From an uncultured Pelagibacteraceae bacterium (GTDB lineage Bacteria > Pseudomonadota > Alphaproteobacteria > Pelagibacterales > Pelagibacteraceae): DNA of 64,000 bases. The stretch covers positions 1-64,000 of the forward strand of contig CACAHE010000006.1 of assembly GCA_902532195.1 (NCBI GenBank). The letters are read 5' to 3'. This document shows, piece after piece, positions 6,862-56,368 of this stretch. The notes beneath the pieces were generated by a model, which ran no database searches, was not told the DNA's origin, and saw only the letters and a list, made by a program, of their open reading frames with translations. Every line of letters starts with the position of its first letter. The first letter of the stretch is position 1. The translations under genes and the position numbers were made by a program.

Positions 6862-7786
6862 TTATTTTTTCTAGAACTTTTGATGCACTCAATTTTGATA
6901 AATCAGAAACTTGAATAACTTTAAAATTGTGTCTTTCTATACTTACTTTGAATGCAGTAGTATGTGATCCAAACAATGTAATACCTTTAACATTTAAATG
7001 AGCTGCCATATGTGCGGGTCCAGTATCATTCGCAACAACAAATGAACTTTCTTTTATTAAAGAAGCTAGTTGTGAAATATTTAAAGGTTTTTCATTATCT
7101 AATATAATTGTAGCATCAATTTTATTTGCATCTTCGATTTCATTTGGTCCTGGAGCAACAACAATTTTAAATTGTTCATTATACTTTTTTTTTATTAACG
7201 CAATGAGTTCATTATAATATGGCCATTTTTTTAAAGTTAAGTGTGGTGAGCAAAAAGGGAATAATATTATATATTTATCTAAATTAAATTTAGATTTTAT
7301 ATTTTTTATATCAATGCAGCTCCATGAGAAATCTGGAAACATAGTATTTTTTGTTTTAAGTCCAGAAGTTCTTAATTGATGATCAAATCTATCTAGAACT
7401 GGTTTTTTATCAAATTCTTCTTTTGTCTTATCTTGTGGTAACGTCGTTTCAGATGATGACCAAATGTTTAAATTAGAATTAGGAAATAATATTCTTTTAT
7501 AAAAAGATGTTCTTGAAGAATTTTGGAGATCATAAACTTTAATAAAATTTAATTTTTTTATTTTTCTCATAAGAGAGTAAAGATAGAATAAATTAAATCT
7601 TGAAAGCCTTTTATCTAATATAACATCAGTCAAATTTGGATTTTTCTTAAATAATTCATAATAAGGTTGAGTTGTTAATAAATATATACCTTGATCTTTA
7701 TGATTTTCAAAAATATCTTGAATTGCACCACTTGCTTGGGCTATATCTCCTAAGGAGCCATGTTTGATGATTAAAATATTAGACAT
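6845..7786 (-). CDS. Glycosyltransferase family 9 (heptosyltransferase-like)
   Basis: MSNILIIKHGSLGDIAQASGA start, FVVANDTGPAHMAAHLNV motif. Confidence 0.88.
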   Translation of the reverse strand: MSNILIIKHGSLGDIAQASGAIQDIFENHKDQGIYLLTTQPYYELFKKNPNLTDVILDKRLSRFNLFYLYSLMRKIKKLNFIKVYDLQNSSRTSFYKRILFPNSNLNIWSSSETTLPQDKTKEEFDKKPVLDRFDHQLRTSGLKTKNTMFPDFSWSCIDIKNIKSKFNLDKYIILFPFCSPHLTLKKWPYYNELIALIKKKYNEQFKIVVAPGPNEIEDANKIDATIILDNEKPLNISQLASLIKESSFVVANDTGPAHMAAHLNVKGITLFGSHTTAFKVSIERHNFKVIQVSDLSKLSASKVLEKITNFLN

Positions 7787-7818
7787 ATTTTTAACAACAT
7801 AACACACTATATAAAATT

Positions 7819-8208
7819 ATGAATAAAATTTTAGTTGAAGTATCTGTTGGTGAGCTTTTAGATAAAATTAGTATTTTAGAAATAAAAAAAGAAAAAATTA
7901 AAGATCTAGAAAAGCTTAAATTCATAAATGATGAATATAATGTTTTAAAAACAGAGCTTAAAAATAATATTAAGTTTGATGAAAAATTAAAAAAATTATT
8001 TACCTCATTAAAAGAAATTAATTCTAAATTATGGTTTATTGAGGACGACAAAAGAATGTGTGAAAAAAACTCTGATTTTGGTGACAAATTTATTAAAATT
8101 TCAAGAGAAGTACATTTTTTAAATGACGAAAGATCAAAAATTAAACTTGAGATAAATAATATGACAGGATCTAAAATTAAAGAAATAAAAGAATATACAA
8201 GCTATTGA
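7819..8208 (+). CDS. DUF6165-like protein
   Basis: VEVSVGELLDKISILEIKKEKI. Confidence 0.7.
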   Translation: MNKILVEVSVGELLDKISILEIKKEKIKDLEKLKFINDEYNVLKTELKNNIKFDEKLKKLFTSLKEINSKLWFIEDDKRMCEKNSDFGDKFIKISREVHFLNDERSKIKLEINNMTGSKIKEIKEYTSY

Positions 8209-8876
8209 AAACTATATTTTTTTTCAAGATATTTTATAAAGCTGTGAATCACAAAAGTCATAAATAAGTAAATACTTCCAGCTACAATAAACACTTCTAT
8301 TGGTTTAAATGTTGTTGATATAATGTATTTAGCTACTCCAGTTAAATCCATTAGTGTAACAGTACTAGCTAAAGATGTTCCTTTAAGCATTAAAATAATT
8401 TCATTACCATAAGCTGGTAATGATTGTCTAATTGCAATTGGAATTTGAATTTTATAAAAAATTATCTTACTTGATATGCCTAAACTTTTTCCAGCTTCAA
8501 TAAAACCTGGTTTAATTGTTTGAAAGGCTGATCTAAGTATTTCAGAAGTATAAGCACCTGTATTTAATGAAAATGCTATAATTGCACACCAGTAAGGTTC
8601 CTTTAAAACTACCCAGAGAACTGTTGATCTTAGATATTCAATTTGTCCAAGACCGAAATAAATAATAAATATTTGTACTAATAAAGGTGTACCTCTAAAC
8701 AAATATGAATAACCATAAGCAAATTTATTTACAAAAATATTCTTATTTAATCTAAGTATTGCAAATATTAGGCCAATAAATAAACCAAAAAACAATGATA
8801 AAGATAATAGTTTCAGTGTTATTACTGTTGCGCTTAAAAGTTTGGGAATACTTGATGACATTAATTCTAGATCCAT
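8202..8876 (-). CDS. Amino-acid ABC transporter permease (HisM/HisQ family)
   Basis: FRGTPLLVQIFIIYFGL, EAGKSLGIS. Confidence 0.92.
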   Translation of the reverse strand: MDLELMSSSIPKLLSATVITLKLLSLSLFFGLFIGLIFAILRLNKNIFVNKFAYGYSYLFRGTPLLVQIFIIYFGLGQIEYLRSTVLWVVLKEPYWCAIIAFSLNTGAYTSEILRSAFQTIKPGFIEAGKSLGISSKIIFYKIQIPIAIRQSLPAYGNEIILMLKGTSLASTVTLMDLTGVAKYIISTTFKPIEVFIVAGSIYLFMTFVIHSFIKYLEKKYSFQ

Positions 8877-9568
8877 CAGTACCCCCTGCTATATTTAAGT
8901 TCTAATCTATTAATTAACTTCATGCTTAAAAATGTTAGCAATAGATAAAGAACTGCAGCAAATGAATAAAAAAATAAAGGATCCCTTGTAGATCCAGCTG
9001 CTATGTATGATTGTCTCATAATTTCTACTAAACCAGTAACAGAAATCAAAGATGTGTCTTTTAAAGTAATTTGCCAAACGTTACTTAAATTTGGAATTGC
9101 TAACCTTAGCATTTGAGGCATAATTACTTTTAAAAATTGAATATTTTTTTTTATACCTAAAACTTTTGAAGCTTCGTACTGACCTCTATCAATTGATTGT
9201 AAGGCTCCTCTAAAAACTTCAGTAGAGTAAGCTCCTGATATGATACCTATAGCAAATGAGCCAGTTAAAAATGCATTGATTTCAATATACTCATTGTATC
9301 CAAAAATTGATGCAACAAACATAATTGCACCACTTCCACCAAAGAAAAAAAGATAAATTACCAATAATTCTGGAACTCCTCTAATAACTGTTGTGTAAAA
9401 ATTCCCTATTAAATTTAAAAATTTATTTTTTGATAATTTTAAGGGGGTAAAAATTAATGCAAACAAAAAACCAATTAACATTGCAGTTACTGAAACTGCT
9501 ATTGTCATTAGGGTAGCAATAAATAATTCGTCTCCCCAACCTGTTTTTCCAAATGCTAGAAGATCCAT
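8876..9568 (-). CDS. Amino-acid ABC transporter permease (HisM/HisQ family)
   Basis: IRGVPELLVIYLFFF, YEASKVLGI. Confidence 0.92.
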   Translation of the reverse strand: MDLLAFGKTGWGDELFIATLMTIAVSVTAMLIGFLFALIFTPLKLSKNKFLNLIGNFYTTVIRGVPELLVIYLFFFGGSGAIMFVASIFGYNEYIEINAFLTGSFAIGIISGAYSTEVFRGALQSIDRGQYEASKVLGIKKNIQFLKVIMPQMLRLAIPNLSNVWQITLKDTSLISVTGLVEIMRQSYIAAGSTRDPLFFYSFAAVLYLLLTFLSMKLINRLELKYSRGY

Positions 9569-9570
9569 AT

Positions 9571-9604
9571 AGAATGGCGACTATATATTATAGTCGCCCA
9601 TTCT
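9571..9604 (-). terminator. Intercistronic hairpin between substrate-binding-protein and permease genes
   Basis: agaatggcgactata (9571-9585) / tatagtcgcccattct (9589-9604), one bulged C. Confidence 0.6.
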
Positions 9605-9611
9605 TAAATAA

Positions 9612-10463
9612 TTACATAGAAGCGTCGAAGCCAAACCATTTAACAGCAAGTTTACTAATAATTCCTTTTTTTCTAGCTGTATTAATAGCTCTATTGAAAT
9701 CTTTTAAAAGTTTCGCATCTTTTTTACCAATTGCATCATCTCCACCTTTTCTGATTCCAACGCCAACGCCATTACCAAAAGCTCCACCTGAAAATGTAGG
9801 ACCTACTAAGACAACAGCTTTTCCAGATTTTTCTGCATAATCAGTAAATGCTACAGCTGCAGCTAAAGCAGCGTCACATCTTCCAGCAGCTAAATCTAAG
9901 TTAACTTCATCTTGAGTTTTATAAGTTCTTACATCTATCTTACCTACATCACCTGATTCTAAAAAGTTTTGGTGAATAGTAGCTGTTTGAACACAAACAG
10001 TTTTTCCAGCAAGAGCGCCCGTTAAAGTTTTCAATGCTTTTTTTACATCGCCACCGCCTAAAGTAAGATTTATTCCCTCTGGAGTATCTATTCCTTCTAG
10101 ACTAGATCCTTTCATTACTGCTAAAGATGCAACTTCGTCAGCATAACCTTGTGAGAAGTTTATAGTTTTCATTCTTTCATCAGTAATTGACATTCCGGCC
10201 ATGATTGCATCAAACTTTCTCATTACAAGAGCAGGTATCATTCCATCCCAATCTTGTTCAACAATGGTACAATCATGTTTCATGATTGTGCAAAGTTCTT
10301 TTGCCAATTCAACTTCAAAGCCAATTAAATTGCCAGACGCATCTTTAGAATTCCAAGGCGGGTAAGCACCTTCCGTTCCAATTTTAATTTTATCAGCATT
10401 AGCTGAAATTGATAAAAATAGTGAAATCAATAATCCTAAGCTGAATTTTTTTAATATGTTCAT
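9612..10463 (-). CDS. Amino-acid ABC transporter substrate-binding protein (HisJ/ArgT-like)
   Basis: Signal peptide; IGTEGAYPPWNSKDASGNLIGFEVELAKELC. Confidence 0.93.
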   Translation of the reverse strand: MNILKKFSLGLLISLFLSISANADKIKIGTEGAYPPWNSKDASGNLIGFEVELAKELCTIMKHDCTIVEQDWDGMIPALVMRKFDAIMAGMSITDERMKTINFSQGYADEVASLAVMKGSSLEGIDTPEGINLTLGGGDVKKALKTLTGALAGKTVCVQTATIHQNFLESGDVGKIDVRTYKTQDEVNLDLAAGRCDAALAAAVAFTDYAEKSGKAVVLVGPTFSGGAFGNGVGVGIRKGGDDAIGKKDAKLLKDFNRAINTARKKGIISKLAVKWFGFDASM

Positions 10464-10520
10464 ATTCCCTCCAAATAATATTTAAATATTATTTCATAAA
10501 AAAATTGATTTAAAAAGAAA

Positions 10521-11561
10521 TTATTTATTTAATGAAGAAGCAAAATTCCATGAACAATCAAAACTTGGGATATAAATTCTATCAAGGGATGTATTGCCAA
10601 AGCTTTTATCGAACAATTTAAGCCATTTATCTACTTGTTGTGGTTTTTTGTCTATACTGCCTACTTGAGCAGTAATGGTTCCGTTTGGTTTTAAAATTCT
10701 TTTTAGGGATTTAATATTTTTGGCAGCAAGGTCTATACAATACTGATCATCATTGAGATCTACAAAAATTTTATCATATTTGTTATCTTCTACTTTTTTT
10801 ATACTTTCAAATGCATCTCCCCAAATACACTGCACAGAATTTTTTCCTGTAGCTTTTTTTCCAATTTTTGAAAGATGTTTTTCACATACAGTTACTACTT
10901 CTGGATCAAGTTCATACCAATCAATAAAGTTAAAGTTTTGAGAAATACATTCTCTTGCTATTCCCCCATCTCCTCCTCCAATTATAGCTGAATTTTCCTT
11001 TTTTGGATTTAGTTTTATTCCTGAATTTACAAAAGTTGAACTGTATAAATGTTCATCTTTTTCGGCAACTTGAAGTTCACTATCTATAAATAATGATTTA
11101 CCAAATTGTTCTAATTCTAATATTTCAATATGTTGACCTGCTTTTGATGTAAAGTCTTCTAAAACATTATTTACTATATAGAATTTTTTAAGACCTGGAG
11201 AGCTATATATATCGTCATAATAGGCAACTGTATCTCTATTTAACTCTTTTTTAACAATCCTTTTATGTTTAATTTCTTTTTTTAATATATCTAAAGCAAT
11301 TATTGGGTTTATTTTACCACAAGTAAAAAAATCAAAACTTATAATTCCTTTCTCTGGGAATGTGTGAAAGCTTATATGGCTCTCTGCTAATAAAGCAACT
11401 AGAGTAAAACCTTGAGGTTCAAATTTATATTTTGAAATTTCTAATACAGTAACTTTTGCTTTTTTTGCAATCTTGTAAACTAATTTTTCAAAAAAATTTG
11501 GCTCATACTCTTTGCTTGTGCCAATAATATCAAGAGTGATGTGCTCCCCTACTTTTGTCAT
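10521..11561 (-). CDS. Fused S-adenosylmethionine decarboxylase (SpeD-like) – spermidine synthase (SpeE-like)
   Basis: N-terminal LLAESHISFHTFPEKG (pyruvoyl-type Glu-Ser cleavage site) followed by AIIGGGDGGIARECI and IFVDLNDDQY spermidine synthase motifs. Confidence 0.88.
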   Translation of the reverse strand: MTKVGEHITLDIIGTSKEYEPNFFEKLVYKIAKKAKVTVLEISKYKFEPQGFTLVALLAESHISFHTFPEKGIISFDFFTCGKINPIIALDILKKEIKHKRIVKKELNRDTVAYYDDIYSSPGLKKFYIVNNVLEDFTSKAGQHIEILELEQFGKSLFIDSELQVAEKDEHLYSSTFVNSGIKLNPKKENSAIIGGGDGGIARECISQNFNFIDWYELDPEVVTVCEKHLSKIGKKATGKNSVQCIWGDAFESIKKVEDNKYDKIFVDLNDDQYCIDLAAKNIKSLKRILKPNGTITAQVGSIDKKPQQVDKWLKLFDKSFGNTSLDRIYIPSFDCSWNFASSLNK

Positions 11562-11586
11562 AACTCCCCTTTTAAATTATAAAAAA

Positions 11587-12249
11587 CTATCCTTTTTTAT
11601 AATGTATTATCTTATCCAAAATCTTACTCATTTCTGTTTTAGAAAGAATCTTCGGATTACCAATTTTTAAAGCAATTATGTATTGATGGCAAATATTTTC
11701 TACTTCTTGTGCAAGTTCAAAAGCTTGTTTTAAATTTGGTCCGAAAGTTATCTGACCGTGATTCGACATTAAACAAGCTTTTCTATTTTCTAAAGCTTTA
11801 AGAAGATTAATTGATAGTTCCGGCGTTCCAAACGTTGCGTATTCTGCGCATTTTATGTCATCTCCTCCAGCTAATGCTACCATATAATGAAATGCTGGAA
11901 TTGATTTTCCATGTGCAGATACAGCTGTTGCGTGAGGTGAGTGAGCATGAACAATTGCTTTTGCCTCAGGTTTTTTTCGATAAATGTCTTGGTGGAATCT
12001 CCATTCAGATGATGGATTTAAAGATGAATTAAACATTTTAAGATTATTGTATTCTTCTCGCAATGATAGAAAAACTATATCATTTGTCTTAAGAGTTTCG
12101 TATTTTATTCCTGAAGGAGTTAAAAGAAAACCATCAACATCATCTTTTCTTGCTCTAATTGAAACATTTCCTGATCTTAAAGGAGACAAATTTGTAGTAT
12201 TAAGCTTTTGAGCAAATGTAATAACTTGTTGTTTTAATTCTTCAATCAT
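11587..12249 (-). CDS. Class II aldolase/adducin family protein, FucA-type (candidate Ald2)
   Basis: SGNVSIR, AIVHAHSPHATAVS, IPAFHYMVALAGGDDIKCAEYATFGTPELS, MSNHGQITFG. Confidence 0.85.
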   Translation of the reverse strand: MIEELKQQVITFAQKLNTTNLSPLRSGNVSIRARKDDVDGFLLTPSGIKYETLKTNDIVFLSLREEYNNLKMFNSSLNPSSEWRFHQDIYRKKPEAKAIVHAHSPHATAVSAHGKSIPAFHYMVALAGGDDIKCAEYATFGTPELSINLLKALENRKACLMSNHGQITFGPNLKQAFELAQEVENICHQYIIALKIGNPKILSKTEMSKILDKIIHYKKG

Positions 12250-12442
12250 TTTTTAGTTTTTGTATTTCTTTATCACAAAAATTTTTAATTTCTTCTATAC
12301 TTTTGGCTGTTGTACGTTTTTGAGCCAATATACATGCTTTGGTTGATTTTTCTAAACTATAAGAACCATATATATTTTTTGTGAGGTATAATGCAAAGAT
12401 GGCAATAATTATAAATAAAATTGTTACAAGATTTTTTTTCAT
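12242..12442 (-). CDS. Small single-TM hypothetical protein inside the MTA-salvage operon
   Basis: 66 aa, overlaps both flanking ORFs, N-terminal TM segment. Confidence 0.6.
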   Translation of the reverse strand: MKKNLVTILFIIIAIFALYLTKNIYGSYSLEKSTKACILAQKRTTAKSIEEIKNFCDKEIQKLKND

Positions 12443-13509
12443 TTATATAATTTTTTTAATCCTTTTTCTGATGCTTCACATATACCTTTCTCAGTAATTA
12501 AACCAGTTACATATTTAGCTGGAGTAATATCAAATGCTAAATTCATAGCTTTACTTTTTTTTGGGTATATTTGTATTTTTTTTAAACTATTGTTTTCATC
12601 AAGTCCTTCTATGTATGATAATTCTTCAGAATTTCTTTCTTCTATAGGAATATCTTTAAAATTTTTAATATCCCAATCGATAGTTGAGCTTGGTAATGCT
12701 ACATAAAAAGGTACTTTATTATCATTTGCCGCAAGAGCTTTAAGGTAAGTTCCAATCTTATTGCAAACATCTCCATTTGCTAAAGTCCTATCTGTACCAA
12801 CAATACAAATATCTACTTCTGCTCTTTGCATTAGTATTCCACCAGTATTATCAGCAATAATTGTATTGGGTATTTCTTCTTCATTTAATTCATAAGAAGT
12901 TAAATTTGCACCCTGATTTCTTGGTCTTGTTTCATCTACCCAAACGTGAACTGGGATTCCTTTTTTGTGAGCATGATAAATTGGAGACGTTGCCGTACCC
13001 CAATTAATTGTAGCTAGCCAACCTGCATTACAGTGGGTTAAAATATTTACAGTGCTTTTTTTTTTATTATAAATTTCTTGTATTAATTTTAATCCGTTTA
13101 AACCAATATTTTCACAAAATTTTATATCTTCTTCACAAATTTCTTGTGCTTCTTTTATAGCAATATTTAATTTTTCATTACTATTAACTCCTGACAATTT
13201 TTTCATCATTCTATCTACAGCCCATTTAAGATTAATAGCTGTTGGCCTAGACATAATTAGATCTTCGCTACTTTTTTTCAGAAAAGACTGATCGTTGTTT
13301 TCTATAATTGCTAAAACTAAACCATACGCTGCGGTCGCTCCTATTAGAGGTGCTCCTCTAACCTCCATAACTTTTATCGCATTGATAGCGTCTTTTACAG
13401 TTTTAAGATCTTTAATTATAAATTGATGAGGAAGTTTTGTTTGATCAATAATTTTTACAACTTTATTTTCAAACCATATTGTTCTGTATTCTTTTCCATT
13501 TATTTTCAT
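12439..13509 (-). CDS. mtnA: S-methyl-5-thioribose-1-phosphate isomerase
   Basis: VRGAPLIGATAAYG, THCNAGWLATINWGTA, VDETRPRNQGANLTSYEL, IVGTDRTLANGDVCNKIGTY. Confidence 0.95.
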   Translation of the reverse strand: MKINGKEYRTIWFENKVVKIIDQTKLPHQFIIKDLKTVKDAINAIKVMEVRGAPLIGATAAYGLVLAIIENNDQSFLKKSSEDLIMSRPTAINLKWAVDRMMKKLSGVNSNEKLNIAIKEAQEICEEDIKFCENIGLNGLKLIQEIYNKKKSTVNILTHCNAGWLATINWGTATSPIYHAHKKGIPVHVWVDETRPRNQGANLTSYELNEEEIPNTIIADNTGGILMQRAEVDICIVGTDRTLANGDVCNKIGTYLKALAANDNKVPFYVALPSSTIDWDIKNFKDIPIEERNSEELSYIEGLDENNSLKKIQIYPKKSKAMNLAFDITPAKYVTGLITEKGICEASEKGLKKLYK

Positions 13510-14307
13510 TTAATTTCTCCAAACAACAGGAAACCAATCTTCTCGCATTTTTGAACCTGTTTTTAAATCTATTCCTTTAAATGGTGGAGATGTTTCTTCG
13601 CCTCTATCTATATATTTTACATCATCGCCAATAAAACGCATAGAAAAAGCCCTTCTAGGTAAACTTCCTGTATTCCCTGGAGCAGAATGTAATACTTTAA
13701 AGTTAAATAATATTGCATCTCCTAAATTCATCTCAGGATTTAATATATTGTTTTCCATTGCTTTAATATCTGGCATGTCCATAAAATTATCATCACTACA
13801 ATACCAAGGTTGATTGTTAGACCATTTGGTAGGTCTAACTAACTTAGGAAATTTGTGTGAGCCTAATAATACTCGTAAAGAATTATCTTTTGATATTGAG
13901 TCTAGTGGTATCCAAAAGCTACCAGTATCATTTCCATCTACACAATAATATGGCATATCTTGATGCCACGGAGTTTCTTTTGATGTTCCAGGATCTTTAA
14001 CAAATATATGTTCGTGAAATAACTGAATTGATTTAGAACCAGTTGCTTCTGCAACAATTTGGGCTGCTGGGGACTCCTTTATACATTTTTTAAATTCAGG
14101 TATACGTTCCCAATTACAATAGTCTTCAAAAAAACGTCCTTCTCCTTTTGTTTTAACATTTTCACGAGCGTGCGAACCGGGGTTGGTTAAAACTTTATCA
14201 AAACCTTTTTGTAAACTTTTAATCCAAGGTTTAAAAACATTTTTTATTACAATTGCACCATAATTTTTATAATTTTTTTTTTGTACTTCGCTTAGAAAAT
14301 TATTCAT
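13510..14307 (-). CDS. Phytanoyl-CoA dioxygenase (PhyH)-like Fe(II)/2OG oxygenase
   Basis: HxD in TPWHQDMPYY, distal His in FKVLHSAPGN, RRAFSMRF. Confidence 0.85.
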   Translation of the reverse strand: MNNFLSEVQKKNYKNYGAIVIKNVFKPWIKSLQKGFDKVLTNPGSHARENVKTKGEGRFFEDYCNWERIPEFKKCIKESPAAQIVAEATGSKSIQLFHEHIFVKDPGTSKETPWHQDMPYYCVDGNDTGSFWIPLDSISKDNSLRVLLGSHKFPKLVRPTKWSNNQPWYCSDDNFMDMPDIKAMENNILNPEMNLGDAILFNFKVLHSAPGNTGSLPRRAFSMRFIGDDVKYIDRGEETSPPFKGIDLKTGSKMREDWFPVVWRN

Positions 14308-15176
14308 TTATTTAAAACTCTGCCGGCAACAGTATTTAATTTTTCTATAGTTTTTTTAGTTCTTTTTTTAGGATCTGTAATTATGGCTACATCCAAACAA
14401 TTAGTTGTTGGGTCTTTTGGATCTATATGATTTTCAAAATTATCTATTAAGTTCTTAATCATATTTTTTGCTTTTGCTGCATTATCTAAAAGTACTTTAA
14501 TAACTTTTTGAACATCTACATTTTCATGTTCTGGGTGCCAACAATCATAATCGGTCACCATAGATACTGAAGCGTATCTAATTTCAGCTTCTCTAGCTAA
14601 CTTCGCTTCTGGCATATTTGTCATTCCAATAACATCAGCTTTCCAGGATCGGTACAAGTTTGACTCTGCCAAAGTTGAAAATTGCGGGCCTTCCATAACT
14701 ACATAAGTACCATTTTTTTGGTAAGGAATATTTTCTTTTTTTATAGCCTCTTCGCATGCATTCATTAAACCACTTGATGTAGGATGTGCCATTGATACAT
14801 GGGCAACTATCTCATCATCAAAAAAAGTTTTGTTTCTTGCAAAAGTTCTATCAATAAATTGGTCAACAATAACAAATTTGCCTGGATTTAATTCTTCTTT
14901 AAGAGATCCGACTGCAGAAACTGAAACTATGTCAGTAACTCCGAGTTGTTTTAGTGCATCAATATTTGCTCTAAAATTTATTTTTGATGGAGAAATAAAA
15001 TGTCCTTTCCCATGCCTTGGAAGAAAATAAATTTCTTTTCCATTATATTTAGTCCTTAAAATTTGATCAGATGGTTTACCCCAAGGTGTATTTAAATCTA
15101 AAAGCTCTCTATCCTTAAATTCTTCAACATCATATAGGCCACTACCGCCAATTATTGCTAATTTATTGTTTGCCAT
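14304..15176 (-). CDS. mtnP: S-methyl-5'-thioadenosine phosphorylase
   Basis: IGGSGLYDV, PRHGKGHFISPSKINFRANI, VVMEGPQFSTLAESNLYRSW, IGMTNMPEAKLAREAEI. Confidence 0.95.
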   Translation of the reverse strand: MANNKLAIIGGSGLYDVEEFKDRELLDLNTPWGKPSDQILRTKYNGKEIYFLPRHGKGHFISPSKINFRANIDALKQLGVTDIVSVSAVGSLKEELNPGKFVIVDQFIDRTFARNKTFFDDEIVAHVSMAHPTSSGLMNACEEAIKKENIPYQKNGTYVVMEGPQFSTLAESNLYRSWKADVIGMTNMPEAKLAREAEIRYASVSMVTDYDCWHPEHENVDVQKVIKVLLDNAAKAKNMIKNLIDNFENHIDPKDPTTNCLDVAIITDPKKRTKKTIEKLNTVAGRVLNK

Positions 15177-15219
15177 AATTTAAAAATAATTTATTTATCA
15201 ATATATAACGTAAACAATT

Positions 15220-15747
15220 ATGGATTTAAAAGAATATATTAGATCAATTCCGGACTATCCCAAAAAAGGAATACTTTTTAGGGATATAACAACTTTAATT
15301 AAAAATGAAAAAGCTTTTACTAATTGTATCGATCAAATAGTTGAAAAATCTAAAAAATTTAAATTCAACAAAATAGCTGCAGTTGAATCTAGAGGATTTG
15401 TTTTTGCTTCTGCAGTTTCTTACATATTAAATAAACCTTTCATTTTACTTAGAAAAAAAAATAAACTACCAGCTGAAACACACTCTGTAGATTTTGAATT
15501 GGAATATGGAACTGCTACGATAGAAATGCACAAAGACTCTATTAGTAAAGAGGATTCTGTAATTATAATTGATGATTTAATAGCAACAGGCGGAACAGCA
15601 GAAGCTGCTGCAAAACTAATAAAAATATCTAATGGAAAAGTTTCAGGTTTTATATTTGTTATTAATCTTTTTGATTTGGGTGGTTGTGATAAACTTATCA
15701 AAGATGGATTTAAAGTTGAGAATTTAATTGAATTTCCTGGTCATTAA
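15220..15747 (+). CDS. apt: Adenine phosphoribosyltransferase
   Basis: IRSIPDYPKKGILFRDITTL, VESRGFVFASAV, VIIIDDLIATGGTAEAA. Confidence 0.95.
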   Translation: MDLKEYIRSIPDYPKKGILFRDITTLIKNEKAFTNCIDQIVEKSKKFKFNKIAAVESRGFVFASAVSYILNKPFILLRKKNKLPAETHSVDFELEYGTATIEMHKDSISKEDSVIIIDDLIATGGTAEAAAKLIKISNGKVSGFIFVINLFDLGGCDKLIKDGFKVENLIEFPGH

Positions 15748-15758
15748 TTATTTTTAAA

Positions 15759-16463
15759 TCATAAACTCATTATTTCATTTATTTTATTTTCATAAGACTG
15801 GTCTATATAAATTAATGAAACACCAAATTTAGAAGCTAAAAAATATCCATTATTAGTCAAATGCTTATGTGTAGATGTTTCTAAAATTTTTTGTGTATTA
15901 TAATTATTTTCTTCAATGCATATCAATGAAGGTTTTATTTCAATAAGATTTAATGTTGATAAAACTTTAAAATCAAAACCCTCAACATCAATATTTAAAA
16001 AATCAATTTTTTTTAAATTATTTTCTTTTAAAATTGTTGATAATTTAAATGCTTTAATAGGTATTTTTTTTAAATTAGAATTTTCATTTAAAGAATTTTG
16101 TTGATTAATGAAACCATTTTCATAATAAAAAGTTTCTCCATCGAAATCAGTTATAGCTGCTTGGATGTTTATATCGTTTGGTCTAGACAATTTAAACAAA
16201 TCTATAGACACTTTGCTCAGATCTATATTTAAACCAGTCCATCCTTTTTTAAATAATTTATATGTTAAAGAACCTTTTATTGGATGATAACATCCTATAT
16301 CGACATAATTACCTTTTAATTTATTTTTAAAAAATCTCGATATAAAAATATCCTCCCCAAATTCACCGAGATGTTCCTTGGTTTTTTTTGATTTTAATAT
16401 TTTTATTTTTTTATAAAAATAATAAAGAAAATTATTGTTTATTATTTTATTTTTAAATGACAT
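15759..16463 (-). CDS. FkbM family methyltransferase
   Basis: YVDIGCYHP, IDFLNIDVEGFDFKVL. Confidence 0.85.
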   Translation of the reverse strand: MSFKNKIINNNFLYYFYKKIKILKSKKTKEHLGEFGEDIFISRFFKNKLKGNYVDIGCYHPIKGSLTYKLFKKGWTGLNIDLSKVSIDLFKLSRPNDINIQAAITDFDGETFYYENGFINQQNSLNENSNLKKIPIKAFKLSTILKENNLKKIDFLNIDVEGFDFKVLSTLNLIEIKPSLICIEENNYNTQKILETSTHKHLTNNGYFLASKFGVSLIYIDQSYENKINEIMSL

Positions 16464-16467
16464 CTTA

Positions 16468-17358
16468 TTAATCTACTCTATACCAAGAACTCATTCCAAT
16501 GATAGAAGAAATTAAACCATAGCTTCTAAAAAAGTATTTAACAAATTCTGTTTTTTTAAAAAAAACTAAATAAAAAATTGATTTTAAAATTGATCTAATT
16601 AAAGGACCGATTGATTTAATTAATGCATATAAAAAATTGTGGTTTTTTTTGTCATAATAAAATTTTGACCACATTAAATGCCAATTTCTAATTTTAATAA
16701 ATTTTATAATTGATAGATCATCTTCTAAAGATCCTTTTGCTCCAAGATGATCTACTTTTAATTTTCTACTAGTATATACCTGGTGACCAATTTTTTTTAA
16801 TCTTAGACATAAATCCTTTTCTTCATAAAAAAGAAAATATTTTTCATCAAATATTTTTTTTGAATCAAACTTTTTAAGATCAACTAGTATTGAACAACCA
16901 ACAACCCAATCAACTTTTTGTAGATTGTTAGCGTCTTCTTCCATATTGTAGTCGAATTCTTTATTGTTAAAAAAAAAAGCAGGTTTATAACTCAGTTTTT
17001 CATAATATTGGGATCCTATAATGGAAAAATCAACTGATCCATCTAAATAAGTATTAATATTATGAAAATAATTCTTATCACATATTATATCAGGATTTAA
17101 AATTAAAGCATATTTTGTTTTTACTTTAGAAAGACCAAAATTATTTCCTGGTCCCATTCCTAAATTTATGTTGGTACACACAACTTCAACATTTGAAAAT
17201 TGATTTAAGATCTCTTGCTCGTATTTTAATTCACTAGAATTTTCTACTATTATAGTTTTTACTTGTCGATCAATTGATTGAAGACAGTTCCTAAGAATCT
17301 CAAAGTTTGTTTTATAAGTAACGATTATAACTGTAAGCTCTGATAAATAGTTATTCAT
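16468..17358 (-). CDS. Glycosyltransferase family 2 (rhamnosyltransferase-like)
   Basis: TVIIVTYKTN, NINLGMGPGNNFG, LILNPDI, FDEKYFLFYEEKDLCLRLKK. Confidence 0.9.
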   Translation of the reverse strand: MNNYLSELTVIIVTYKTNFEILRNCLQSIDRQVKTIIVENSSELKYEQEILNQFSNVEVVCTNINLGMGPGNNFGLSKVKTKYALILNPDIICDKNYFHNINTYLDGSVDFSIIGSQYYEKLSYKPAFFFNNKEFDYNMEEDANNLQKVDWVVGCSILVDLKKFDSKKIFDEKYFLFYEEKDLCLRLKKIGHQVYTSRKLKVDHLGAKGSLEDDLSIIKFIKIRNWHLMWSKFYYDKKNHNFLYALIKSIGPLIRSILKSIFYLVFFKKTEFVKYFFRSYGLISSIIGMSSWYRVD

Positions 17359-17412
17359 AATTTAGACTTAATTAATTATATACTTCTTTTTTTATTAATG
17401 TAAAAAATATAA

Positions 17413-18438
17413 ATGAAAAAATTTATAGTTACTGGCGGTCTTGGCTTTATTGGTAGCAATTTAATTAAAATTTTATTAGATAAAAATTATTATGTAATTA
17501 ATATCGATAAAATTACATATGCATCAAATTTTTATAATGTTAAAAACTATAAAAAAAATAGAAATTATAAGTTTATAAAGTGCGATACTAGGAATCAAAA
17601 AAAAATACTATCAATCTTTAAAAAATATAAGCCAAAAGGTATATTTAATTTAGCTGCAGAGACTCATGTTGACAGATCCATAGATGGTCCTAGAACATTT
17701 ATAGAAAATAATATTAATGGAACTTTTTCAATTCTTGAGGCAACTAGAAAATATTTAAAAAAAAATAAAAACTTTAGACTTCTTCATGTATCAACAGACG
17801 AAGTATATGGAGACGTTTTAAAATCAAGATCAAAGGAAAAAGACGCTTACAAGCCAAGTTCTCCTTATGCCGCTAGTAAAGCTTCATCAGATCATCTAGT
17901 ATATTCTTACATAAGAACATACAAAATAAATGCTGTAATTACAAATTGCTCAAACAACTATGGACCAAATCAACATCCTGAAAAATTAATTCCAAAATTA
18001 ATTTATAATATTTTAAATAACAAAGAACTTCCTATTTATGGAAAAGGTAAAAATTCAAGAGAATGGATACACGTTGAAGATCACTGTAATGCTTTGTTGA
18101 AAGTTTTGTTAAAAGGAAAAACAGGAGAGTTTTATAACATTGGGTCAAATACAAATTATAATAATTATGATTTGGCAAAAAAATTATTAAAAATTTCAAG
18201 AAGAAAATTAGTTTTAGGAAAAAAAGTAAGGATTAGATTCGTCAAAGATAGACCAGGTCATGATATGCGTTATGCAATAAACTCAGATAAAATTAAAAAA
18301 AGATTAAAATGGAAGCCAAAAATAAACTTAGATAAAGGTCTACTAAATACTTTTGAATGGTATATTAAAAACAAAAAATTTTTTAAAAACATAAATAAAA
18401 AACAGATTATAAAAAGATTGGGCATCATAAATGATTAA
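17413..18438 (+). CDS. rfbB: dTDP-glucose 4,6-dehydratase
   Basis: TGGLGFIGSNLIK, AAETHVDRSIDGP, STDEVYGD, SPYAASKASSDHLV, GREWIHVEDH-like motif. Confidence 0.93.
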   Translation: MKKFIVTGGLGFIGSNLIKILLDKNYYVINIDKITYASNFYNVKNYKKNRNYKFIKCDTRNQKKILSIFKKYKPKGIFNLAAETHVDRSIDGPRTFIENNINGTFSILEATRKYLKKNKNFRLLHVSTDEVYGDVLKSRSKEKDAYKPSSPYAASKASSDHLVYSYIRTYKINAVITNCSNNYGPNQHPEKLIPKLIYNILNNKELPIYGKGKNSREWIHVEDHCNALLKVLLKGKTGEFYNIGSNTNYNNYDLAKKLLKISRRKLVLGKKVRIRFVKDRPGHDMRYAINSDKIKKRLKWKPKINLDKGLLNTFEWYIKNKKFFKNINKKQIIKRLGIIND

Positions 18439-52356: not shown

Positions 52357-53034
52357 TTATTGTTTAATTTTTCCTTGAGCTAAATTTACTTTAGTTTCCA
52401 ATCTTCTAACCCACATAGCTGCTGGTACAGAAAGAATTAAGAATATTATACCAACCATTGTGTAAGGTTCCAAATATCTATAATTATAGCCTCCAACTGC
52501 TGTAGCAGCATGAAACAACTCTGCGACACCAATTGTTGATAATAGAGGAGTATCTTTAAAAATTCCGACTAAATAATTTCCCATTCCTGGTATCGCTATA
52601 GGAAAAGCCTGAGGCAAAACTATTCTTCTATAGGTATAAATAGTTGAGAAATTTAATGCCCTACATGCTTCCCATTGAGTTTTTGGCACACCTTCTAAGG
52701 CTCCTCTATAAACTTCAGAAAGATAAGTTCCAAAATGTAAACCAATTGTAATCATTCCACAAAGCCAAGCTGAAAGAGTTATTCCAAATTGAGGTAATAC
52801 AAAGTAGACAAAGAACAATTGTATTAAAAGTGGAGTTGAACGAACAAATTCTACTATTTCTCTATTAATTATGTTTACAATTTTAAAAGGAGTTCTTTGA
52901 CCTAATAGAAAAAATAAACCTACTACTAAAGCAATTGCATAACCTACTCCTGCAGCAATTATTGTGTTTAAAGTTGCCCATAGCATTTGAGGCAATATTT
53001 CATAAGCAAAATCCCATCTAAAACCCATTTCCAT
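52357..53034 (-). CDS. ehuD: Ectoine/hydroxyectoine-type ABC permease
   Basis: VRSTPLLIQLFFVYFVLPQFGI, WEACRALNFS. Confidence 0.8.
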   Translation of the reverse strand: MEMGFRWDFAYEILPQMLWATLNTIIAAGVGYAIALVVGLFFLLGQRTPFKIVNIINREIVEFVRSTPLLIQLFFVYFVLPQFGITLSAWLCGMITIGLHFGTYLSEVYRGALEGVPKTQWEACRALNFSTIYTYRRIVLPQAFPIAIPGMGNYLVGIFKDTPLLSTIGVAELFHAATAVGGYNYRYLEPYTMVGIIFLILSVPAAMWVRRLETKVNLAQGKIKQ

Positions 53035-53038
53035 ATAA

Positions 53039-53710
53039 TTATGCCTTTCCTCTTCCAACTTTTTTTGCTGCTAAAACTTCTAACCATCTTAAAAAAGGAA
53101 CAAGCGCAAATCTTGCCATAAAATAATAAATAAGTAATGCTGTTCCAAAACATTGAGCAGAAAGCCAAGTAATAGAATTAATTTGTTTTGCTTCAAAAGT
53201 TAAATCAACAACTGTAACCAATGCCACAAGTGCTGTTGCCTTTAAAAGTTCTACCGTTAAATTAGCGGCTGGGGGCAAGATAATAGGAAAAATCTGTGGA
53301 ATAATAATTCTCTTAATTCTTTTTGCTGGGCTAAAATTAAGTGCATGTGCAGCTTCCCACTGCCCTTTGGGAACTGCTAGAATACCTCCTCTAACTATTT
53401 CAGCTCCATATGCACCAAAATTTAAACCTAGTGCAGCTACACCTGCTGTAAAAGCTTCTAATGAAATACCAAAAAAAGGTAACACATAATATGCCCAAAA
53501 TAATTGAACTAATAAAGATGTCCCTCTAAAAAATTCTATATAAACAGTTGCTGTGCCTTGTATAATTGGATTCTTTGATAAACGCATTAAACCAAAAATC
53601 ATTGAGATAATTACATAAAGAATTATAGAACAGACTAATACTTTAATGGTAGTGACTGTTCCTAATAACAATGTTGTTCCGTGCTCTGCTAAGAATGCAA
53701 AATAACTCAC
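53039..53710 (-). CDS. ehuC: Ectoine/hydroxyectoine-type ABC permease
   Basis: FRGTSLLVQLFWAYYVLPFFGI, WEAAHALNFSP. Confidence 0.8.
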   Translation of the reverse strand: MSYFAFLAEHGTTLLLGTVTTIKVLVCSIILYVIISMIFGLMRLSKNPIIQGTATVYIEFFRGTSLLVQLFWAYYVLPFFGISLEAFTAGVAALGLNFGAYGAEIVRGGILAVPKGQWEAAHALNFSPAKRIKRIIIPQIFPIILPPAANLTVELLKATALVALVTVVDLTFEAKQINSITWLSAQCFGTALLIYYFMARFALVPFLRWLEVLAAKKVGRGKA

Positions 53711-53736
53711 AGTATAACCTTTTGTAATTTAAAAAT

Positions 53737-53766
53737 AATCAGGCGACCTTCTTTAGTCGCCTGATT
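53737..53766 (-). terminator. Intercistronic hairpin between ehuB-like and ehuC-like genes
   Basis: aatcaggcgac (53737-53747) / gtcgcctgatt (53756-53766), 8-nt loop. Confidence 0.75.
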
Positions 53767-53787
53767 TTTTAATTATGTTAATTAATA

Positions 53788-54633
53788 CTACTTAGTTGAA
53801 CAAGCCCACTCAGTAGTCATGTCTGGAGGCGGAAGTTGAGCTTTATCATACCCATACTTACCAGCTCTCTCTAACATTTTAGCTGGATTAGCTAAAACTT
53901 TTGCTAAAGCAGCATTAAATGCTTCTCTAAATTTATCGTCACTTTTTCTAAATCCAATACCAACCACATTTACAGTTTCTTTTGGCATTAATTTAGGGTC
54001 AGTCACTTCAAATTTACCACCACTTTTTTCTTCATGTTCTTTTGCACCAAAAAAAGTTTGAACTGCCGCATCAGCTCTTCCTGCTTTCATAGCAGCAAGT
54101 ATTCCTACTTCACCTTCTACTAATAACATTTGACTATCAGGTACACCAAATTTTTTAGCAGCTTCTACAGTATTGAAACCAGTACCGGTAACAAGTGTAG
54201 CTCCTGTTCTGATAACATCAGCATAGTTATTAATTCCTTTTGGATTTCCTTTAGGAACTAACATTGCATCACCAAATACTCCAATAGGATCTGAAAAGTC
54301 TATATTTTCACATCTAGTTTTTAAAATGTACATACCGCCAGTAATCATATCTGAACGATCTGCATTTATACCTGGAATTAATCCCGACCATTCAAAAACT
54401 TTAGTTTCATGTTCAGTAATTCCCATTTCTTCTAAAACAGTTAAAGCAATCATGTTAACAAAACCTAATGCTTCACCATTATCACCAGCATAAGCCCATG
54501 GCACAGCAGTACCAAAACCAAGTCTTAACTTGTGACCATCAGCTAATCTTTCAGTTAGAGTTTTCGCACTAACAGAAGAAATACTGAAAAGAAGAACAAG
54601 TAAAACTGTAATCGATTTAAAAAATTTACTCAT
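53788..54633 (-). CDS. ehuB: Ectoine/hydroxyectoine-type ABC substrate-binding protein
   Basis: LADGHKLRLGFGTAVPWAYAGDNGEALGFVNMIALTVLEEMG, KPMLERAGKYGYD-like C-term. Confidence 0.82.
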   Translation of the reverse strand: MSKFFKSITVLLVLLFSISSVSAKTLTERLADGHKLRLGFGTAVPWAYAGDNGEALGFVNMIALTVLEEMGITEHETKVFEWSGLIPGINADRSDMITGGMYILKTRCENIDFSDPIGVFGDAMLVPKGNPKGINNYADVIRTGATLVTGTGFNTVEAAKKFGVPDSQMLLVEGEVGILAAMKAGRADAAVQTFFGAKEHEEKSGGKFEVTDPKLMPKETVNVVGIGFRKSDDKFREAFNAALAKVLANPAKMLERAGKYGYDKAQLPPPDMTTEWACSTK

Positions 54634-55523: not shown

Positions 55524-56348
55524 CTAATATTTTCCTATTTTTTCTGATCCTCTATAAAAAATTTTTGATAATTCATCATTTGCTTTTTTTCTATTTAAAA
55601 TATCTTTTTGATTCATTAATTCACTTGGGATAGCTACATTTTCATGATGATTAAATGTATCTTTTCCTCTAGCTAACTGAACATACATTTTGCCCAATAC
55701 TTGGTCAACATTCGTTCCTATGTAACTTTGTACAACAAATCCTATTCTTCTATCTCTACTTTTATTTAACCCAGATCCATGAACAACCTTTGGGTGGTGA
55801 AGGGACATTTGTCCAGCTTTTAGAATTACTGGATTAGTTTTTTCAATTTTTACATTTTCTATTGTTTGTCCTCGAGTTAATAAATTATTTTCATCAAATT
55901 TTTGATTATGATGTCTTAAATTTTCTTTATGGGAACCTGCCAACATTCTCATACAGCCATTTTCTTCATTTGCATCTGTTACCGCTATCCACGCAGTTAC
56001 CCAATTATGTGGCTCTAAACCAATATATTTTGCATCTTGATGAAAGCTAACAAAACCTTGCTCGTTTGCATTTTTTATAAAAAGAGTTGTTCCACATATA
56101 AGTATATTTTGACCTATTATAGATTCAACTGCGTTTAAAATTTTTGGTTTATAACAAATTTTATTAAATACTGGTGAAATTAAATGAACATAGTTTCTTC
56201 CTAATCCTTCTAATTCCTCTGGCCATTTTTTTTCGATATATTCAATTTCATCTCTTATTTCATTAGCTTCTTCTTTAGACAAAACATCGATAGGAGCAAC
56301 ATATCCATCTTGTTCATACTGCTTAATTTGATTAGAACTTAAATGCAT
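55524..56348 (-). CDS. Phytanoyl-CoA dioxygenase family protein
   Basis: FVSFHQDAKYIG, TAWIAVTDANEENGCMRMLAGSH, LHHPKVVHGSGLNKSRDRRIGFVVQ. Confidence 0.92.
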   Translation of the reverse strand: MHLSSNQIKQYEQDGYVAPIDVLSKEEANEIRDEIEYIEKKWPEELEGLGRNYVHLISPVFNKICYKPKILNAVESIIGQNILICGTTLFIKNANEQGFVSFHQDAKYIGLEPHNWVTAWIAVTDANEENGCMRMLAGSHKENLRHHNQKFDENNLLTRGQTIENVKIEKTNPVILKAGQMSLHHPKVVHGSGLNKSRDRRIGFVVQSYIGTNVDQVLGKMYVQLARGKDTFNHHENVAIPSELMNQKDILNRKKANDELSKIFYRGSEKIGKY

Positions 56349-56368
56349 TTTATAACGCAAGTTATTTA

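Follow-up and report, generated by a model that had tools for sequence, protein, structure and literature searches.

In the 64,000-nucleotide stretch of DNA analysed here (the window), from an uncultured SAR11 bacterium, a gene for a PhyH-family oxygenase lies between mtnP and mtnA. Does the enzyme serve methionine salvage, or does it occupy this place for another reason? The gene and its surroundings are as follows.

8202-8876, minus strand: amino-acid ABC permease 2, after which PhyH is placed instead in most orthologous loci
8876-9568, minus strand: amino-acid ABC permease 1
9612-10463, minus strand: periplasmic substrate-binding protein (SBP) of the Lys/Arg/Orn-octopine-nopaline type (8hqr_A, 500 bits)
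10521-11561, minus strand: SpeD-SpeE fusion (AdoMet decarboxylase and aminopropyltransferase), an MTA-producing enzyme
11587-12249, minus strand: class II aldolase, by its position a putative Ald2-like MTRu-1-P aldolase
12439-13509, minus strand: mtnA, 5-methylthioribose-1-phosphate isomerase (TIGR00512, 418 bits against a cut-off of 279)
13510-14307, minus strand: PhyH-family (PF05721) Fe(II)/2-oxoglutarate (2OG) oxygenase, 265 residues, profile match, with His-115, Asp-117, His-207 and Arg-218
14304-14307, minus strand: 4-bp overlap of the mtnP stop with the PhyH start, a generic mtnP 3' junction at which many genes are inserted in SAR11
14304-15176, minus strand: mtnP, MTA phosphorylase (NF006492, 445 bits against a cut-off of 437)
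15220-15747, plus strand: divergent apt-like adenine phosphoribosyltransferase ORF, named by eye, conserved in position

Active site of the PhyH protein

A profile search placed the product in PF05721 with 85.3 bits against a cut-off of 22, and the model was covered over its full length. His-115, Asp-117, His-207 and Arg-218 are invariant in alignments of 23 and of 41 SAR11 orthologues, which bears out the original prediction that the HxD motif, the distal histidine and the arginine are retained. The iron triad HxD...H and the distal 2OG arginine also align with those of MysH. From these conserved residues the gene is predicted to encode an intact Fe(II)/2OG oxygenase. The canonical methionine-salvage dioxygenase MtnD (acireductone dioxygenase, a cupin) was ruled out as its identity: PhyH was the sole Pfam match of the protein, a family that is not the cupin family, and the NCBIfam models gave no match. 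The genome (0.97 Mb in 34 contigs, 78% complete) also carries a second, distant PhyH-family gene at 55524-56360 of the window, which is its best PF05721 match (108.8 bits) and has a further amino-acid ABC importer close by (52357-54633).

An operon for import, polyamine synthesis and MTA salvage

The operon runs mtnP, PhyH, mtnA, class II aldolase, SpeD-SpeE fusion, SBP and two permeases, with the apt-like gene divergent from it. PhyH overlaps mtnP by 4 bp and its stop abuts the mtnA start with a gap of 0, as had been described, and these junctions make joint translation of mtnP, PhyH and mtnA, also proposed at that time, plausible. The aldolase scored 60 bits against a cut-off of 137 for MtnB, an identity that was therefore rejected. 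The SpeD-SpeE fusion of Pelagibacter is active experimentally and makes spermidine and spermine/thermospermine (PMC11107197); thus MTA is made by the same operon that degrades it. The operon joins arginine/opine-type uptake, polyamine synthesis by SpeDE and MTA salvage by MtnP, MtnA and the aldolase, and the apt-like product would reuse the adenine freed by MtnP. An Rfam scan of 7500-17500 returned zero matches, promoter-like sites around the operon occurred at the level of shuffled sequence, and the number of terminator-like sites (9 versus 3.2 expected) was uninformative for the reading of the locus.

Several variations on this layout were seen. No ATPase gene adjoins the importer genes (8202-10463), either in the window or at the SAR11 loci inspected. 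Some genomes without the Ald2-like aldolase encode a 677-residue fusion of an aldolase with a short-chain dehydrogenase (SDR, PRK08324 type), in opposite orientation, between mtnA and speDE (L059, 5516-7549, with equivalents in G096, G078, G190, G195, G133, G042 and others); this two-domain protein looks as if it substituted for the Ald2-like aldolase and converted the aldehyde too. One PhyH-carrying SAR11 group has a sulfatase-like gene (527 residues) and a small membrane protein after mtnA, and the sulfatase-like gene adjoins a TRAP-type transporter (L088, L087, L082 and L055-L058).

The mtnP-mtnA junction is an insertion hotspot

The junction was surveyed in 90 SAR11 genomes of the genus that have mtnP and mtnA on one contig. 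The two genes are uninterrupted in 53 and interrupted in 37, and PhyH makes up 8 of these 37 inserts. Exported alpha/beta hydrolases and GFA-like, glycosyltransferase-like, FkbM-like, glycoside-hydrolase-like and antisense beta-barrel-like genes make up others, under names judged by eye from the translations, mostly without a profile scan. At least eight kinds of gene have been inserted here (14304-14307 in the window; L212-L231), nearly all with the identical 4-bp overlap with mtnP. That overlap, of the form ATGA or GTGA, is formed by mtnA itself at 37 loci, by PhyH at 22 and by four other families at 20. Among the fetched loci, a set biased to PhyH carriers, insertions were found at mtnP-mtnA in 52% and at mtnA-aldolase in 27%, and also at the operon end, versus 0-1% between the aldolase, speDE, the SBP and the permeases.

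The 4-bp overlap was consequently rejected as a feature specific to PhyH. Because mtnA and unrelated inserts have the same overlap, neither it nor the abutment singles PhyH out, and because unrelated genes commonly land at this junction, position alone is no proof of sulfur recycling. The original prediction had described PhyH as 'locked' between mtnP and mtnA; with 37 of 90 junctions interrupted, mostly by genes other than PhyH, this placement is not supported as a sign of a role in sulfur salvage.

PhyH orthologues occupy four positions in SAR11

An orthologue of PhyH was found in 32 of the 197 genomes of the order, the window's own counted, always as a single copy and with 65-69% identity for the others. 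When 85,000 species genomes were scanned, 80 PhyH loci came up, all from SAR11 or from single cells labelled merely as alphaproteobacterial; a search of phage records returned no homologue. The commonest position is the operon end, directly after the second permease (47 of the 80 loci), where PhyH starts 1-9 bp past the permease or overlaps it by 4 bp. Seventeen loci have the gene beside mtnP/mtnA, 14 beside a glycosyltransferase-TauD-TrpB-like-DUF1015-SerC-SerA cluster, and in two it is an orphan. In a tree of 103 distinct sequences, obtained by a quick search with no bootstrap, each of the four positions corresponds to one clade. The operon-end clade comprises 63 sequences (support 100) and the mtnP/mtnA clade, which includes the window gene, 24 (support 91); the two are sisters (SH-aLRT 96). 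The original prediction had staked itself on close homologues keeping company with MTA genes, and the nearest orthologues do so, being in the operon and at mtnP/mtnA in 24 of 24 cases, but the rest lie elsewhere, so that the outcome for this prediction is mixed.

Outside SAR11, homologues of 43-53% identity were collected from other Alphaproteobacteria and some Burkholderiales, on 7 plasmids and at 20 genome loci. Neither mtnP nor mtnA was found within about 8 kb of the homologue on any of these plasmids and genome loci, two of the latter being loci at which the PhyH ORF was unrecovered. At least 12 of the loci adjoin a LysR regulator, and in the closest group the neighbours are LysR and an aromatic amino-acid lyase. 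On the Ti plasmid Rhizobium pTiB21_90, a 46% identical PhyH homologue is followed by an SBP, two permeases and an ATPase; the SBP and permeases share 40-49% identity with those of SAR11, and this SBP, too, is nearest to octopine/nopaline-binding proteins. The Rhizobium importer thus differs from the SAR11 one in having an adjoining ATPase gene. Elsewhere in the Alphaproteobacteria, no close pairing of PhyH with orthologous SBPs was found, the nearest case being a 34% homologue about 6 kb away (G252). A general importer-PhyH pairing beyond SAR11 was rejected on comparing these loci, and the importer link outside SAR11 therefore hangs on the one Rhizobium locus.

One complete genome retains PhyH without the MTA salvage genes

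Across the genus, mtnA is present in 96 of 117 genomes. It occurs in 31 of the 32 PhyH carriers versus 65 of 85 non-carriers (Fisher p 0.006, uncorrected for phylogeny). Where PhyH lies outside the operon and the assembly reaches 0.9 Mb or more, mtnA was present in 12 of 12 genomes, counting G193; this agreement is weak because the base rate of mtnA is high enough to allow it (0.09 expected). Together with the sister relationship of the two operon clades, the co-occurrence is a hint that a link with MTA metabolism is genuine.

A complete, single-contig genome (G026) speaks to how strict such a link is. It has PhyH at the operon end, and mtnP, mtnA, ald2 and the aldolase-SDR fusion are all absent. 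Its PhyH is under purifying selection, with differences of 0.065 at codon position 2 versus 0.317 at position 3. Since a constrained PhyH is retained without mtnP, mtnA or the aldolases, the products of MtnA or of an aldolase are not required by the enzyme, and PhyH can hardly be an obligatory step in MTA or methionine salvage. In G026 the speDE operon opens instead with an MTA/SAH nucleosidase-like gene (175 residues), in the place of mtnP, mtnA and the aldolase (L054, 5253-5780).

The reading that we favour, and consider probable with some reserve, is that PhyH is an accessory oxygenase kept in an arginine-import, polyamine and MTA operon with no obligatory step in salvage. It draws on the observed conservation of the active site, the insertion hotspot, the mobility of the gene between positions and its retention without mtnP, mtnA and an aldolase. 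The gene would have reached the mtnP-mtnA site by insertion at an operon junction open to many unrelated genes, and we infer that it is co-transcribed with the operon there.

The strongest competitor, less probable but to be taken seriously, is that PhyH is unrelated cargo, with a substrate foreign to the operon, which merely supplies expression. The range of unrelated genes accepted by the junction agrees with this, as do the SAR11 orthologues that stand alone or beside glycosyltransferase, TauD, SerC and SerA genes and the homologues elsewhere that are stand-alone, often with LysR. Both operon clades are nevertheless sisters that stayed in one operon, which would be unexpected under random placement unless the moves were local.

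A more specific proposal, which we regard as unlikely, makes PhyH the missing aerobic enzyme of the DHAP-methanethiol shunt, freeing methanethiol from 2-(methylthio)ethanol or (methylthio)acetate. In this scheme MtnP, MtnA and the aldolase would convert MTA to DHAP and 2-(methylthio)acetaldehyde, and the aldehyde would be reduced or oxidised; PhyH would then hydroxylate the sulfur-adjacent carbon, and the product would collapse to methanethiol and glycolaldehyde or glyoxylate. The chemistry is reasonable, and the aerobic route of R. palustris proceeds through MtnP, MtnA, Ald2 and 2-(methylthio)ethanol to methanethiol with the enzyme or enzymes of the last step unassigned (PMC5893883). The window matches that route in having MtnP, MtnA and a non-MtnB class II aldolase, Ald2-like if its position is a guide, in one operon along with the MTA-producing SpeDE; PhyH carriers that lack ald2 mostly have the aldolase-SDR fusion, and the mtnA counts given above (31 of 32, and 12 of 12) lean the same way. 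However, no oxygenase is defined in R. palustris, and in SAR11 PhyH is missing from some genomes with mtnP and mtnA, being present in merely 31 of about 96 mtnA-positive genomes of the genus. The expectation that PhyH is kept only alongside MtnA/aldolase products fails in G026, the homologues outside SAR11 lie away from MTA genes, and the junction itself is an insertion hotspot.

The importer and MysH suggest a class of substrate

Under the favoured reading of an accessory oxygenase, the substrate would enter through the linked importer or arise in polyamine metabolism. The operon's SBP matched 8hqr_A, which we take to be an arginine/lysine-binding protein of Pelagibacter, over its whole mature length, and octopine- and nopaline-binding proteins ranked next; the importers of these opines (OccJ, NocT) are thus its nearest relatives after its own SAR11-like orthologue. 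The Rhizobium Ti-plasmid locus, too, pairs PhyH with such an importer. We know of no member of the PhyH clade in described octopine or nopaline catabolism.

When the family profile was compared with the PDB, the nearest solved relative of PhyH was MysH, the palythine synthase (9c9n/9pze, E 1.7e-33). The two share the HxD...H...R layout; they differ in that MysH serves biosynthesis of mycosporine-like amino acids in cyanobacteria, and genes for that pathway were found neither in the window operon nor in the annotated neighbour clusters. For MysH, the proposed reaction places a hydroxyl group on an N-linked glycine, after which the side chain is lost and the amine remains (PMC10510106). By analogy, PhyH may hydroxylate a small metabolite in a 2OG-driven reaction, probably at a heteroatom-adjacent carbon, and this could release an amine together with an aldehyde or keto acid. 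The SBP type and the MysH chemistry therefore favour heteroatom-adjacent hydroxylation of a basic amino-acid, opine-like or polyamine-linked compound, which we name, tentatively, as the likeliest class of substrate.

In a narrower form, the favoured reading has PhyH hydroxylate either a polyamine produced by SpeDE or the precursor of one. speDE is within the operon in both operon clades, and in G026 it persists where mtnP and mtnA do not; yet nearly all SAR11 genomes that lack PhyH have speDE as well, and it is about 10 kb distant in several genomes of the mtnP/mtnA clade, so that we hold this form to be improbable. Least credible is an action on free nucleosides such as demethylation of 2'-O-methyladenosine, an activity described for PHYHD1 and some bacterial PhyH-like enzymes on free 2'-O-methyl nucleosides (PMC12709175): PhyH has mtnP and the apt-like gene as neighbours and shares the PF05721 fold family and a predicted 2OG dependence with PHYHD1 and the FJS demethylases of that study, but most orthologues lie away from mtnP or apt, and the absence of any PHYHD1 chain from the PDB matches of the family profile up to E 1 leaves membership of a PHYHD1-type group unsupported by sequence similarity.

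Discussion

There are precedents for PhyH enzymes, for methionine-salvage operons and for variable gene slots in SAR11. Our literature search found no paper tying PhyH to methionine salvage in SAR11, nor a description of this gene setting. The hotspot weakens the appeal of the claim originally built on the placement of the gene, and it carries a caution for SAR11: since the mtnP-mtnA junction accepts unrelated genes with the identical ATGA overlap, such a 4-bp overlap within an operon is uninformative on function and should not be taken as evidence of a common one. A description of the operon for arginine import, polyamines and MTA salvage, in which two alternative aldolases occur, is useful in itself.

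SAR11 cells are short of reduced sulfur. Given this shortage and a last aerobic shunt step that lacks an assigned enzyme, a candidate oxygenase in the right operon merits an assay. If the shunt proposal were true, abundant marine bacteria would gain an O2- and 2OG-dependent route from polyamine waste to methanethiol.
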